Assembly: GCF_028649655.1 (NCBI RefSeq)
Contig: NZ_JAQSLN010000006.1
Coordinates: forward strand, 1 to 56,478
DNA: 56,478 nt
Reading direction: 5' to 3'
DNA from: Halobacteriovorax sp. GB3
GTDB taxonomy: Bacteria; Bdellovibrionota; Bacteriovoracia; Bacteriovoracales; Bacteriovoracaceae
Shown in pieces: positions 14,754 through 42,779 of this stretch. A program made the translations under genes and the position numbers. Each line of letters opens with the position of its first letter. The first letter of the stretch is position 1. The notes beneath the pieces are model-generated. The model searched no databases. It saw only the letters and a list, made by a program, of their open reading frames with translations, and had not been told where the DNA came from.

Positions 14754-16172
14754 TTAATTTGATCGAAAATTCGCTAAAGTTCGACAAATGATGAGACCCA
14801 TTGAAGTTGCAACAATTCCAGCGTAAAGTTCGTCGATTTGGGCGTAAAATCCGGGCAGTGGCGCGTTGCGCCAGTAAGTCGTAAAGACAATTCCTAGAAT
14901 TGAAGAAAAGAGAAATTGTTTGTCTGAAATCTTTCCAGGAAAGAGATATCCAAAAAGAACAGGAAGAAGTAAGCAAGCCGCCGAGTAACTTCCTAAGGTT
15001 TTCCAAACAAGTTTAATATTTCCATCAAAGTGATAGGCTAAAATAAGTGAAATGAAGGCCGTTGAGAGAACCCCTAAATGGTGAATGCTGACTTTTTCTC
15101 TCCACTTAATTGGAAGGAGATCAAATGTGATAGTTGTTCCAGCTAAAAAGAGATAAGAGTCGAGAGTTGAAAGAATTGTCGCAAGTATTCCTGCTAAGAA
15201 AAGGCCTCGAAGACCATCGGGAAGCAGTTGAACTGCATAAGTTAAATAAGCCGTTGATGATTCTGCCTCTGGAAGAACTGCCCTTGCATACATGGCCCCA
15301 AAAGTCGTACAAATATCGAAGAGAAACCAAATTCCCGTTGATATAATAATCCCTTTTTTAGCCGTTTTTTCTGATTCCGCAGCAAAACATCGCTGATAGA
15401 AATTTGGATCAACAAGAGTTGATAGAGCAATGAGTCCCCAGACAAGTGTTGTTGCTAATCCATGACCTCCAAGAGGTTCAAAGTGAGTGGTAGGTAAGTT
15501 GGCCTTAAGAAAATCTAGTCCACCAAATGTTGAGATGGATGTTGAGAAGACAAGAAAAACACCAAGGCACATGACAAAAAATTGAATGATATCAGAGAAG
15601 ACAACAGAACGAAGTCCGCCCCACATTGAATAGAGAACAACAAAGATTAGACCTATACTCATATTAAAGAGTAGCTCGCCACCAAAGAGAGTTTGTAGAA
15701 AGAGCCCTAGACTGATCGTGTAAGCGATTGGCAAAACATTAAAAAGGTTGAATAGAGCACTTAGCTTAGCCGAATTTGGACCGAACATTTTACCTATCAG
15801 ATCCGGCAAAGTAACGGCCTGATAGCTTTTAATTTTGTGAATGATAAAGAAAGCAAAGATTAAATAGGCGACATACCAGAATGCTCCCTGAGTGATAAAA
15901 TTGTAGATACCATTATTAAAAGCAATTTCAGTTACGCCAAATATTCCTCCATACCATGTGGCAACGAGAGTTGAGACAAAGAGTGGGAGAGTTAGTTTCC
16001 TTCCCATTAATAAGAGGTCGAGAAAATTGTCTTTCTCATTAGTCGTTTTCTTTTTTAAGGAATTCCCATAGAGAACACTGGCCGCGGTAAGTGCGATAGT
16101 AAAAGCAAAGACGACCCAGTCTAACGGGGAAATAAGTGATTGAATATCAACGGATTGTTGGAAGCCTTGCAT
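14754..16172 (-). CDS. sodium:solute symporter family transporter, predicted thiamine or thiamine-precursor uptake
   Basis: 472 residues with about 13 hydrophobic membrane segments, characteristic of the SSS (SLC5) family. It includes the GGIFGVTE, VLYSMWGGLRSVVFSDIIQFFVM and STLDSYLFLAGTTI-type blocks of sodium-coupled carriers. The gene is directly preceded by a TPP riboswitch (16183-16265) whose 3' end contains the AGGAGA ribosome-binding site. The likely cargo is therefore thiamine, HMP or another precursor; SSS carriers under TPP control have been predicted before by comparative genomics. No thiamine biosynthesis gene is nearby. The family call is firm, the substrate inferred. Confidence 0.85.
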   Translation of the reverse strand: MQGFQQSVDIQSLISPLDWVVFAFTIALTAASVLYGNSLKKKTTNEKDNFLDLLLMGRKLTLPLFVSTLVATWYGGIFGVTEIAFNNGIYNFITQGAFWYVAYLIFAFFIIHKIKSYQAVTLPDLIGKMFGPNSAKLSALFNLFNVLPIAYTISLGLFLQTLFGGELLFNMSIGLIFVVLYSMWGGLRSVVFSDIIQFFVMCLGVFLVFSTSISTFGGLDFLKANLPTTHFEPLGGHGLATTLVWGLIALSTLVDPNFYQRCFAAESEKTAKKGIIISTGIWFLFDICTTFGAMYARAVLPEAESSTAYLTYAVQLLPDGLRGLFLAGILATILSTLDSYLFLAGTTITFDLLPIKWREKVSIHHLGVLSTAFISLILAYHFDGNIKLVWKTLGSYSAACLLLPVLFGYLFPGKISDKQFLFSSILGIVFTTYWRNAPLPGFYAQIDELYAGIVATSMGLIICRTLANFRSN

Positions 16173-16182
16173 CTGGAAAATC

Positions 16183-16265
16183 TCCTTTCGACAGTATGAA
16201 CTGTATCAAGTTCTTAGGGTCGAAGACGCCTCTTCCTCTCAGCTAATGATCGCTTAGCTCCCCTG
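16183..16265 (-). promoter_or_regulatory. TPP (thiamine pyrophosphate) riboswitch, THI element
   Basis: The minus strand shows the THI-box landmarks in order: TCAGGGGAGC, then AGCTGAGAGG, then GACCCTAAGAACTTGAT, a short CAG/CTG helix around TTCATA, and TCGAAAGGAGA. Only the usual GAACCTGAT is altered (CC to CT). The final GGAGA is also the Shine-Dalgarno of the SSS gene (8 nt before ATG 16172), so control is probably at translation initiation. Confidence 0.92.
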
Positions 16266-16312
16266 ATTTTTTATGACTCTAACAATGCTTTGAAAATAAG
16301 AAAAGAGCAATG

Positions 16313-16337
16313 AAAAAACTCCCCAGAAGGGGAGTTT
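16313..16337 (-). terminator. intrinsic terminator of the 16339 gene
   Basis: A 9-bp stem AAACTCCCC/GGGGAGTTT (16316-16324 and 16329-16337) with an AGAA loop, followed on the minus strand by a run of T (A run 16313-16318). Confidence 0.8.
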
Positions 16338-16338
16338 G

Positions 16339-16656
16339 TTAGGAAGCTTTTTTGGATACTTTTTTCTTGGTGAGAAAAATCATATAGGCGGCACCTCCGG
16401 CACCTGTATGGTCGCCACCTTCATAATGACCAATGATGTGATGATGTCCATCATAGATTTCACCATCATCAAAATAGGCCATAACGCTATCTCTTAGATT
16501 GACTATAGTATTGCCTACTACGTAACCAAGAATTTGATCATTTGCATCTGTTACCTGATTGTTGGCAACGTGACCAATGACTCGGCTACCTACCTTAATA
16601 TCGTTGCCATCAACGGTTCCGATATCAAAATAACTTGTATCTTTGAAAGACGACAT
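16339..16656 (-). CDS. small beta-repeat (beta-flower-like) protein of unknown function
   Basis: 105 residues with no signal peptide or transmembrane helix. It has repeated short beta-hairpin units of the form GxxVxxxxIxD (VGSRVIGHV, DQILGYVVGN, GEIYDGHHHIIGHY), a pattern of proteins described as 4- or 5-fold beta-flower. A His-rich DGHHHIIGH segment and a Lys-rich tail follow. It is monocistronic, with AGGAG before the ATG and its own terminator. No enzymatic motif is visible. Confidence 0.7.
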   Translation of the reverse strand: MSSFKDTSYFDIGTVDGNDIKVGSRVIGHVANNQVTDANDQILGYVVGNTIVNLRDSVMAYFDDGEIYDGHHHIIGHYEGGDHTGAGGAAYMIFLTKKKVSKKAS

Positions 16657-16867: not shown

Positions 16868-17821
16868 ATGACAATTACACAATTAGAATACGTTCTCGCT
16901 GTTGATAAATTCCGTCACTTCGGAAAAGCTTCTAAGGCATGTCATGTAACACAGCCAACATTAAGTATGCAGTTACAAAAGCTTGAAGATGAACTTGGAA
17001 TCATTATTTTTGATCGTTCTAAAAGTCCTACTCTTCCTACAATGGAAGGAGCAAAATTGATTGAACAAGCAAGAATTGTTCTTCGAGAGTTCAATAAAAT
17101 CTCTGACATTATTCAAGACGACGGAGAAAGTATCACTGGTGACTTTAAGTTAGCAGTCATCCCAACTTTAGCTCCTTATTTATTACCACTTTTTCTTGAA
17201 CCATTTACTCGGAAATATCCTGATCTTAATTTAAAGATAGAAGAGGCCAAGACCGAAGATATTATTCAGATGTTAGATAAGGATGAAATTGATGGTGGTC
17301 TTCTCGTCACACCTCTTCACGAAGACCGTTTGATTGAAAGAGTTCTTTTTTATGAACCGTTCTATGTCTTTGCTTCAAAAGAAAATGATCTTTATAAGAA
17401 AAAGAAAGTTAAAGAATCTGATTTGAATCTAGATGAGATTTGGCTTTTAAATGAAGGAAATTGTCTTCGAACTCAAGTTTTGAATCTTTGTTCTCGTGAA
17501 AAAGAAGGACTTGGTAAAGAAAAAAATATTCACTTTGAAAGTGGAAATCTAGAGACATTGAAGAATATTGTTTCTTCTGGAGATGGTTTTACATTACTTC
17601 CAGAACTAGCTACGAGAAATCTAAATTCTAACGAAATCAAAATGCTAAGAAAGTTCTCTGGAAATACACCTTCAAGGGAAGTGTCTCTTGTGCACGGAAG
17701 AAGCTTTTTGAAAGAAAGAATTATTAATGCTCTTGTTGACGAGATTATTCATTCACTACCTGATGAAGTGAGATCTCTAAAGAGTAATAAGTTAGAAATT
17801 GTTGAAATTTTTCAACGCTAG
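16868..17821 (+). CDS. oxyR: OxyR-type LysR family peroxide-sensing regulator
   Basis: 317 residues. The LysR HTH at the N terminus (LEYVLAVDKFRHFGKASKACHVTQPTLS) is followed by a substrate-binding-like sensor domain. The two redox-active Cys of OxyR fall at C199 and C208 in EGNCLRTQVLNLC, the same spacing and numbering as in E. coli, so peroxide sensing by disulfide formation is likely. GAGGA sits upstream of the ATG. The antiporter gene begins 15 nt after its stop. No catalase or peroxiredoxin gene is adjacent; any regulon lies elsewhere. Confidence 0.92.
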   Translation: MTITQLEYVLAVDKFRHFGKASKACHVTQPTLSMQLQKLEDELGIIIFDRSKSPTLPTMEGAKLIEQARIVLREFNKISDIIQDDGESITGDFKLAVIPTLAPYLLPLFLEPFTRKYPDLNLKIEEAKTEDIIQMLDKDEIDGGLLVTPLHEDRLIERVLFYEPFYVFASKENDLYKKKKVKESDLNLDEIWLLNEGNCLRTQVLNLCSREKEGLGKEKNIHFESGNLETLKNIVSSGDGFTLLPELATRNLNSNEIKMLRKFSGNTPSREVSLVHGRSFLKERIINALVDEIIHSLPDEVRSLKSNKLEIVEIFQR

Positions 17822-28963: not shown

Positions 28964-29571
28964 AATAATTCCATGTCGTCACGAAACCAAAACGTGACGG
29001 CAGATCTCTTTTTGTAACTTGCTTTTACCTCATGATAAAATTGTTCACTTCGAAAAAGAACAAGTCTTCCTGTCTTAGGATATATAATCTTCTCAACTTC
29101 CTGTTTATTCTCTCTCTTATAAAGAACCAATTCACCCTGATCTTCGAGATCATTTAAATAGAGAATTCCAGTAATCTTTCTGTGCCTTTGATTTCTGTGA
29201 ACATCTAGATGCTTCTTGTAAAAGGCACCATCTTCATAAACTGAGAAATGACCTTCAAATCGCCTTAAAGACAGATAGTAGAGTTGATTGAACTCTTCTT
29301 TCAAAGATTCAAGTGTTTGATTAAGTTCATTTAAGAGTAGATTCTTATTCCAATCATCAATCCAAAAGATTTGATCACTTCTAATCTCTGGGCGATGTTT
29401 CTCAAAAACATCTTGTCCTGTTTTAGCAGATCTAAACTGATCTCTTTCAAATAGAGTGAGAGCATAGTCTCTAAGTGAGCTTGCAAATTGATCTTGAAAG
29501 AGAGTGTCGCAAACGAGATAGCCGTTTTCAATTAATGCGAGTCCTTGAGTTTCAGATAGAGTTTGATCCAT
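28960..29571 (-). CDS. 2OG-Fe(II) oxygenase family protein
   Basis: 203 residues. The double-stranded beta-helix core has the iron motif H-x-D in KKHLDVHRN, a distal His in EQFYHEVK, and the 2-oxoglutarate-binding Arg in KRSAVTFWF. This matches the prolyl-4-hydroxylase/SM-20-like branch (hydroxylation of a protein or small molecule). No partner is identifiable. The ATG start is preceded by a possible weak site. It converges with the PCuAC gene. Confidence 0.87.
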   Translation of the reverse strand: MDQTLSETQGLALIENGYLVCDTLFQDQFASSLRDYALTLFERDQFRSAKTGQDVFEKHRPEIRSDQIFWIDDWNKNLLLNELNQTLESLKEEFNQLYYLSLRRFEGHFSVYEDGAFYKKHLDVHRNQRHRKITGILYLNDLEDQGELVLYKRENKQEVEKIIYPKTGRLVLFRSEQFYHEVKASYKKRSAVTFWFRDDMELF

Positions 29572-29640
29572 CTAAATTGAATATCCGTCTTTTAAATAAA
29601 AGAATAATCGTTATTTCTCTTGAATCGCTTAGTTTTTTAC

Positions 29641-29754
29641 TAAGGTTTGCAGGCCAAAGGCGCGGCAGACCGAGCATCAAATCAAAACGTCTATATAAAT
29701 GGAATTAAAAGGCAAAAAAAAAGCCTAATCCGAAGATCAGGCTTTTTATAAAAT
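29641..29754 (-). repeat. partial second copy of the tRNA-Glu-associated repeat (locus 1)
   Basis: Bases 29641-29754 match 29825-29938 at an offset of 184 with very few differences. The copy includes the repeat body and the TTCG-loop hairpin (29714-29747) and is truncated at its distal end. Confidence 0.85.
29714..29747 (-). terminator. terminator-like hairpin, distal copy
   Basis: On the minus strand, AGCCTGATC-TTCG-GATTAGGCT is followed by nine T residues. One G-U pair is present; the plus strand would instead have an A-C mismatch. Confidence 0.7.
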
Positions 29755-29938
29755 TGGTACTCCCAAGGGGCATCCCGCGGCAATGGTTGCCAGTGGCAAG
29801 CATTGAAGTGGAGATGTTTGATATTAAGGTATGCAAGCCAAAGGCGCGGCAGACCGAGCATCAAATCAAAACGTCTATATAAATGGAATTAAAAGGCAAA
29901 AAAAAAGCCTAATCCGAAGATCAGGCTTTTTATAAAAT
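29755..29938 (-). repeat. 184-bp repeat unit ending in a tRNA-Glu 3' fragment (locus 1)
   Basis: Downstream of tRNA-Glu on the minus strand comes a terminator hairpin (29898-29931), the repeat body (29805-29872), then a second 16-nt copy of the tRNA-Glu 3' end including CCA (29755-29770). The same arrangement recurs at 42380-42562. Confidence 0.85.
29898..29931 (-). terminator. intrinsic terminator directly after tRNA-Glu (locus 1)
   Basis: The same hairpin as 29714-29747, 184 bp away: a 9-bp stem with a TTCG tetraloop and nine T on the minus strand, starting about 8 nt after the tRNA CCA. Confidence 0.85.
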
Positions 29939-30016
29939 TGGTACTCCCAAGGGGATTCGAACCCCTGTTACCGCCGTGAAAAGGCGGTGTCCTAGACCGG
30001 GCTAGACGATGGGAGC
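29939..30016 (-). tRNA. tRNA-Glu (anticodon TTC), locus 1
   Basis: The minus strand starts GCTCCCATCGTCTAG. The anticodon arm is CCGCC-TTTTCAC-GGCGG and the T arm AGGGG-TTCGAAT-CCCCT. The acceptor 3' strand TGGGAGT closes with G1-U72, followed by discriminator A and encoded CCA; 78 nt. It is identical to the copy at 42563-42640. Confidence 0.96.
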
Positions 30017-30050
30017 ATTATCTAGATTAAATTATGCTCATGTCAAAAAA

Positions 30051-30127
30051 TGGTGATCTCGCTGTGACTCGAACACAGGACCCTCTCCTTAAAAGGGAGA
30101 TGCTCTAACCAACTGAGCTACGAGACC
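30051..30127 (-). tRNA. tRNA-Lys (anticodon TTT), locus 1
   Basis: The minus strand starts GGTCTCGTAGCTCAG. The anticodon arm is TCTCC-CTTTTAA-GGAGA, the acceptor pairs GGTCTCG with CGAGATC, and discriminator A plus encoded CCA follow; 77 nt. It lies upstream of tRNA-Glu in one transcript, driven by the promoter at 30147-30175. Confidence 0.96.
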
Positions 30128-30146
30128 ACTTCTTAAGACAGGATCG

Positions 30147-41014: not shown

Positions 41015-41019
41015 AGTTT

Positions 41020-41087
41020 GAAGTGGAGATGTTTGAGACTTAGGTATGCAAGCCAAAGGCGCGGCAGAGCGAGCATTAAATCAAAGA
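41020..41087 (+). repeat. solitary copy of the tRNA-associated repeat body
   Basis: A 68-bp segment closely matching 29805-29872 and the body at 42429 onwards, including GTATGCAAGCC and GGCGCGGCAGA. Unlike the others it is not next to a tRNA and lacks the tRNA 3' fragment and hairpin. Confidence 0.8.
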
Positions 41088-42368: not shown

Positions 42369-42379
42369 CTTTTATAAAT

Positions 42380-42562
42380 TGGTACTCCCAAGGGGCATCC
42401 CGCGGCAATGGTTGCCAGTGGCAAGCATTGAAGTGGAGATGTTTGAGACTAAGGTATGCAAGCCAAGGGCGCGGCAGACCGAGCATCAAGTCAAAACTTC
42501 TATATTAATGGAATTATAAGGCAAAAAAAAGCCTAATCCGAAGATTAGGCTTTTTATAAACT
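42380..42562 (-). repeat. 183-bp repeat unit ending in a tRNA-Glu 3' fragment (locus 2)
   Basis: The counterpart of 29755-29938: terminator hairpin, repeat body, then a 16-nt copy of the tRNA-Glu 3' end with CCA (42380-42395). Here the hairpin stem has A-U where locus 1 has G-U. Confidence 0.85.
42523..42555 (-). terminator. intrinsic terminator directly after tRNA-Glu (locus 2)
   Basis: A perfect 9-bp stem AGCCTAATC/GATTAGGCT with a TTCG loop on the minus strand, followed by eight T (A run 42523-42530). Confidence 0.85.
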
Positions 42563-42640
42563 TGGTACTCCCAAGGGGATTCGAACCCCTGTTACCGCCG
42601 TGAAAAGGCGGTGTCCTAGACCGGGCTAGACGATGGGAGC
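42563..42640 (-). tRNA. tRNA-Glu (anticodon TTC), locus 2
   Basis: Identical in sequence to the locus 1 tRNA-Glu (29939-30016): anticodon loop TTTTCAC, encoded CCA, 78 nt. Confidence 0.96.
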
Positions 42641-42678
42641 ATTATCTGAAATTTGTTTAGATTATACTCAAATCGAAA

Positions 42679-42755
42679 TGGTGATCTCGCTGTGACTCGA
42701 ACACAGGACCCTCTCCTTAAAAGGGAGATGCTCTAACCAACTGAGCTACGAGACC
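42679..42755 (-). tRNA. tRNA-Lys (anticodon TTT), locus 2
   Basis: Identical in sequence to the locus 1 tRNA-Lys (30051-30127): loop CTTTTAA, encoded CCA, 77 nt. The spacer to tRNA-Glu differs between the loci. Confidence 0.96.
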
Positions 42756-42779
42756 ACATCCGTCATTTCGGTGAAAGAG

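Follow-up and report, generated by a model that had tools for sequence, protein, structure and literature searches.

Direct translation attenuation is common for TPP riboswitches, and it has already been described that the conserved, purine-rich stretch at the 3' end of the TPP aptamer core can serve as the Shine-Dalgarno sequence (Barrick and Breaker 2007, PMC2258182). SSS symporters that are controlled by a TPP riboswitch are known as ThiV/SSSP from Methylobacillus flagellatus, SAR11, and algae (Rodionov 2002, as cited in PMC4260697), and TPP-riboswitch-controlled SSS transporters are also reported in PMC2211319. In SAR11, ThiV is an SSS symporter encoded behind a TPP riboswitch, for which HMP-specific uptake was measured in cells, and it probably imports HMP for an organism unable to use thiamine (PMC11452348). 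Signature residues of ThiV/SSSP are Tyr78, Asp139, and Phe254 in SiaT numbering (PMC11452348). In a metabolic model of Bdellovibrio bacteriovorus, thiamine synthesis was found to be incomplete (PMC7529429); in the literature collection searched, no paper joined Bacteriovorax, thiamine, and auxotroph.

Here, we analyzed a 56,478-nt stretch of DNA from Halobacteriovorax sp. GB3 (contig NZ_JAQSLN010000006.1; referred to as the window). Our data make it highly likely that, at this locus, an SSS-family Na+/thiamine symporter is under the control of a TPP riboswitch that acts by direct translation attenuation.

A TPP riboswitch aptamer overlaps the start of a transporter gene

Based on inspection of the sequence, a TPP riboswitch was originally predicted at 16172-16265, and a scan with the Rfam model was proposed as a check. 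Using cmscan, we identified a match to the RF00059 covariance model at 16274-16166 on the minus strand with a score of 72.5 bits (gathering score, 54.3 bits) and an E-value of 2.2e-12 for the window. The match is full length, i.e., it covers model positions 1 to 105 of 105, and represents the predicted element together with its outer flanks, which the original span had missed. In a genome-wide search, it had an E-value of 3.3e-14 and was the only RF00059 match in the 3.62-Mb, 99.8%-complete genome. The THI-box landmarks expected on the minus strand are all present, and the aptamer core can be read in the sequence as AGGGG, CUGAGA, ACCCU, GAACUUGAU, and a purine-rich 3' end (GGAGA), while P1 is formed by 5' AAAUC with 3' GAUUU.

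With a score above the gathering score and the E-values given above for the window and the genome, chance can be excluded as the source of the match. That the element only resembles a TPP riboswitch, or is a degenerate and non-functional one, would fit a P1 that is short and AU-rich and a P4 that contains one non-standard pair; nevertheless, we consider this explanation extremely improbable given the E-value, the complete set of core motifs, and a same-genus relative that shares 72% transporter identity and retains the riboswitch at the corresponding place. From the covariance model and the motifs, we conclude that the element at 16166-16274 is a genuine TPP riboswitch, which is predicted to bind TPP.

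The riboswitch is preceded on the same strand by a gene for a 105-aa protein (16339-16656, minus strand) with a profile match to PF21785 (Bflower_2), a neighbor outside the riboswitch-transporter system. This small gene is followed by a terminator-like hairpin at 16316-16337 on the minus strand (AAACTCCCC TTCT GGGGAGTTT plus a T tail), which was identified as a pattern match in a consensus scan, and the riboswitch transcript therefore probably starts past this hairpin. Downstream of the transporter gene, a gene for a malic enzyme/PTA fusion follows after a gap of ~90 nt. Divergent from the Bflower_2 gene, the window encodes a LysR-type regulator (16868-17821, plus strand) that is closest to OxyR (NF008361, E 1.3e-66, with a score below the cut-off of this model). 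Elsewhere in the window, a pair of tRNA genes with its flanks is present twice (29567-30132 and 42376-42760; 95-99% identical, ~12.6 kb apart), and a related 68-nt repeat lies at 41018-41085; these copies look like a duplicated tRNA cassette that perhaps bounds an inserted segment.

The Shine-Dalgarno sequence of the transporter gene lies within the aptamer

The ribosome-binding site had been predicted to lie inside the aptamer, and the Rfam structure line bears this out. The Shine-Dalgarno sequence AAGGAG at 16187-16182 on the minus strand is composed of the 3' strand of P4 (AAG), the unpaired core junction (GA), and the first base of the 3' strand of P1 (G). The transporter ATG (16172-16170, minus strand) is located 9 nt past AAGGAG; counted from GGAGA, which ends at 16181, the spacing is 8 nt, exactly as predicted, and the RF00059 match overlaps the start of the transporter ORF by 7 nt. 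In an alignment of gene starts, a Shine-Dalgarno sequence inside the aptamer was also found in 14 sampled loci of the family, in 10 Cloacimonadota loci, and in a gammaproteobacterial locus (L167), and in most cases it reads AAGGAG.

Because the Shine-Dalgarno sequence is inside the conserved aptamer core and the ATG follows at a distance of 9 nt, a terminator cannot fit before the ATG, and none is present between aptamer and gene. It is therefore most likely that the TPP-bound aptamer directly blocks ribosome access, i.e., that the element acts by direct translation attenuation. Compared with the described TPP riboswitches of this class, it has the same full aptamer and derives its Shine-Dalgarno sequence from the same 3' end, and it differs in organism and gene only.

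Folding of the 109-nt RNA gave -22.0 kcal/mol with the aptamer pairs enforced and -24.6 kcal/mol for the free minimum, and TPP binding could plausibly bridge this modeled gap of 2.6 kcal/mol to reach the aptamer fold. Ligand-free folding, which we had considered as a way to prove that the Shine-Dalgarno sequence is open, was dropped as uninformative, since the ligand-free fold of a longer RNA did not reveal a clearly open Shine-Dalgarno sequence; for this reason, an ON state with an accessible Shine-Dalgarno sequence is something that we infer. In the mechanism that we propose, AAGGAG at the 3' edge of the aptamer would be reachable when TPP is scarce, and the transporter would be made. Upon TPP binding, P1, P4, and the core junction would lock, the Shine-Dalgarno sequence would be buried, and translation would be repressed. 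Thiamine imported by the transporter would be pyrophosphorylated by the thiamine pyrophosphokinase (TPK) of the cell.

The gene behind the riboswitch encodes a LeuT-fold transporter of the SSS family

The gene at 14754-16172 on the minus strand encodes a 472-aa protein that matches PF00474 with an E-value of 2.7e-30, in agreement with its original assignment to the SSS family. An AlphaFold model (mean pLDDT 89) had its best structural matches (Z 34-37) among SLC5-type transporters with the LeuT fold, i.e., CHT1 (Z 36.9; rmsd 2.9 over 451 residues, ~15% identity over the structure alignment), SiaT (Z 35.5), and SGLT1 (Z 35.4), which are nearly tied. Based on the family match and the fold, the protein is an SSS/SLC5 transporter and would be coupled to Na+.

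In a profile search of solved structures, choline transporters also came first (E 5.6e-32), and SiaT (5nv9) was a further profile relative; the high-affinity choline transporters CHT1/sfCHT (SLC5A7) are thus the best solved relatives by profile and rank at the top by structure. In these proteins, choline is contacted by a Trp residue (W99 in sfCHT and W62 in CHT1; PMC13220886). This residue, which is part of an ATW.GG motif, aligns with W73 (ATWYGG) of the transporter, whereas the remaining pocket tryptophans are not conserved in the alignment examined. Thiamine carries a quaternary nitrogen, and an aromatic cation contact via W73 is therefore possible in the transporter. We know of no link of CHT1/sfCHT to TPP riboswitches. 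Conserved Asp255 was considered as a thiamine-specific pocket residue and rejected, since an Asp is also found at the corresponding position of SGLT1.

The riboswitch-transporter pair recurs within the order and in other phyla

To place the locus among its relatives, we drew on 116 genomes from its order; those listed all belong to the same family. A TPP riboswitch match is present in 55 of these genomes and a close homologue of the transporter in 79; comparing the coordinates of both searches by hand, we found the riboswitch at the transporter start in 30 of the 79 homologue-bearing genomes. The link between riboswitch and transporter is not universal, because ~40 homologues in the order (e.g., loci L117 to L138) have no riboswitch; many of their genomes have TPK. 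We rejected hidden riboswitches ahead of these homologues because no TPP match was detected upstream at E 1 in 40 loci. It seems that TPP regulation of the transporter was lost or gained repeatedly.

Other TPP riboswitches of the group precede genes for TonB-dependent receptors and a YkoE-type ECF system (PF09819, E 1.7e-30) as well as thiC or thiG operons, with the thiG assignment resting on reading of the sequence. Two more (L102, G010:C63; L089, G093:C104) lie directly before small ORFs of 121 and 154 aa, respectively, that look secreted and have no obvious role related to thiamine. Two weak TPP matches (L098 in G096 and L099 in G055; 36.5 and 34.2 bits, respectively) are located upstream of ORFs sized like the YkoE-type ECF operon and are possibly diverged riboswitches.

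Named relatives of the transporter include those from Bacteriovorax sp. BSW11_IV (71% identity), many Cloacimonadota (64-67%), and a gammaproteobacterial metagenome-assembled genome (MAG) (49%). In ten Cloacimonadota loci and the gammaproteobacterial locus L167, a riboswitch is likewise present at the transporter start. As for TPP riboswitches in the 5' leaders of thiamine genes, the element overlaps the start of its gene, here one for a putative thiamine importer, and the pairing occurs in several phyla. Most of the ten Cloacimonadota loci contain a second, divergent TPP riboswitch facing a gene on the opposite strand; in the single locus for which this gene was identified, it encodes a TonB receptor. 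In a quick tree, the Cloacimonadota proteins were nested inside those of the Bacteriovoracaceae; we dropped the reading of a transfer from Bacteriovoracaceae to Cloacimonadota, because a tree that holds the Bacteriovoracaceae together fits at least as well (p-AU 0.794), and we claim no direction.

Gene content points to thiamine as the probable substrate

ThiC, ThiE, and ThiL had zero matches in the 99.8%-complete genome, and a single TPK match was obtained at C1:966537-966818, on a contig other than that of the window. The corresponding 205-aa protein scores over the Pfam cut-off for PF04263, matches TIGR01378 with an E-value of 2.9e-13 (49.7 bits, below the strict NCBIfam cut-off of 76.4), and has a TPK (3lm8, E 0.0014) as its closest solved relative; it is a probable thiamine pyrophosphokinase. 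This gene content fits a thiamine auxotroph with salvage. In the absence of ThiE, HMP and thiazole cannot be joined, while TPK makes TPP from thiamine; because ThiE is absent, the cell is expected to be able to use thiamine and not HMP or thiazole. We therefore predict that the organism needs thiamine itself and not the precursor HMP.

Because a TPP riboswitch is present at the gene start and B1 synthesis is apparently lost, the transporter very probably imports thiamine. Import of "thiamine or a precursor" and dependence on external thiamine had been proposed originally; the gene content strengthens the case for dependence and for thiamine as the predicted substrate, and argues against a precursor, which a cell without ThiE could not use. 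The thiamine may come from prey or the environment. Among named relatives, Bacteriovorax sp. BSW11_IV, whose family includes predators, is the nearest. A ThiC match is missing from 109 of the 116 genomes of the order, which indicates that vitamin B1 auxotrophy is nearly general in the sampled Bacteriovoracaceae. Counting against the proposed explanation, the transporter co-occurs with ThiC and ThiE in three genomes (G045, G082, and G111).

A search of the window genome that covered some of the thiamine transporter families gave no match to YkoE-type or PnuC/PnuT-type transporters. A companion TonB thiamine receptor was considered and rejected because an orthologue of the riboswitch-linked TonB receptor of the family was not found in the genome, the only match being partial with 25% identity.

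The transporter shares with ThiV/SSSP the SSS family and the upstream TPP riboswitch, and as an SSS protein encoded behind a TPP riboswitch, it belongs to this described kind. It could, as ThiV of SAR11 with its HMP-specific uptake (PMC11452348), supply the pyrimidine precursor, but we regard this as improbable. With ThiE and ThiL unmatched in the genome, HMP would be neither joined to thiazole nor finished to TPP. ThiE, which a genome needs in order to use imported HMP, is also absent from 15 of 15 genomes to which the named loci led. These are Bacteriovorax BSW11_IV, 12 Cloacimonadota, one Bacteroidetes MAG, and the gammaproteobacterial MAG, and most of them are MAGs of unstated completeness. 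Moreover, in Bacteroidetes, the homologue adjoins TPK, which acts on thiamine: at positions 1-2877 of L169 and L170, genes for a TonB receptor, TPK (TIGR01378, E about 1e-42), and an SSS homologue with 35-37% identity to the transporter follow each other in a row. This arrangement suggests that the SSS protein may be the inner-membrane thiamine importer in these Bacteroidetes, too. The window genome has the SSS homologue and TPK in common with this run, whereas its TPK gene is on another contig and a receptor orthologue was not found. Genome content thus sets the two systems apart: SAR11 ThiV serves an HMP auxotroph, whereas a genome without ThiE and with a probable TPK fits a thiamine auxotroph. 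A search of 369 genomes from the same class as the gammaproteobacterial MAG yielded no ThiV reference sequence, with only this MAG itself (G127) matching at E 1e-35 or better, and neither did plasmids, where the matches listed are 24-30% identical.

We also assign a low probability to a different substrate, either a TPP-linked compound other than thiamine (TPP itself, thiamine monophosphate, or a degradation product) or a solute that is unrelated and under TPP control by coincidence. In favor of this reading, the closest solved structures belong to transporters of choline, sialic acid, and sugars, the fold does not tell the substrate, and ~40 homologues have no riboswitch. This reading is countered by the recurrence of the riboswitch-transporter pair across phyla, by TPK, which is present in the genome and adjacent to the SSS homologue in Bacteroidetes, and by the TonB receptors, YkoE-type ECF system, and thiC/thiG genes controlled by the other TPP riboswitches of the family.

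Implications for the SSS family

Switch and transporter are both of a known kind, to which the locus adds a well-supported new case, and thiamine is the more likely substrate. More tentatively, and as a proposal that we do not yet favor, Bacteriovoracaceae, Cloacimonadota, and some others might have in common a clade of SSS transporters that is specific for thiamine and separate from the HMP-importing ThiV/SSSP, together with its riboswitch, which would couple TPP sensing to TPK-dependent salvage in thiamine auxotrophs. If so, this would, to our knowledge, be the first bacterial SSS transporter for which transport of thiamine itself is shown.

In a family that has many uncharacterized members, the analysis turns the vague annotation "sodium:solute symporter" into the testable one of thiamine importer. 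If thiamine transport holds true, there would be a thiamine-carrying SSS branch separate from the HMP-carrying ThiV of SAR11, and the existence of the two branches would be relevant to the marine circulation of B1 and its precursors.
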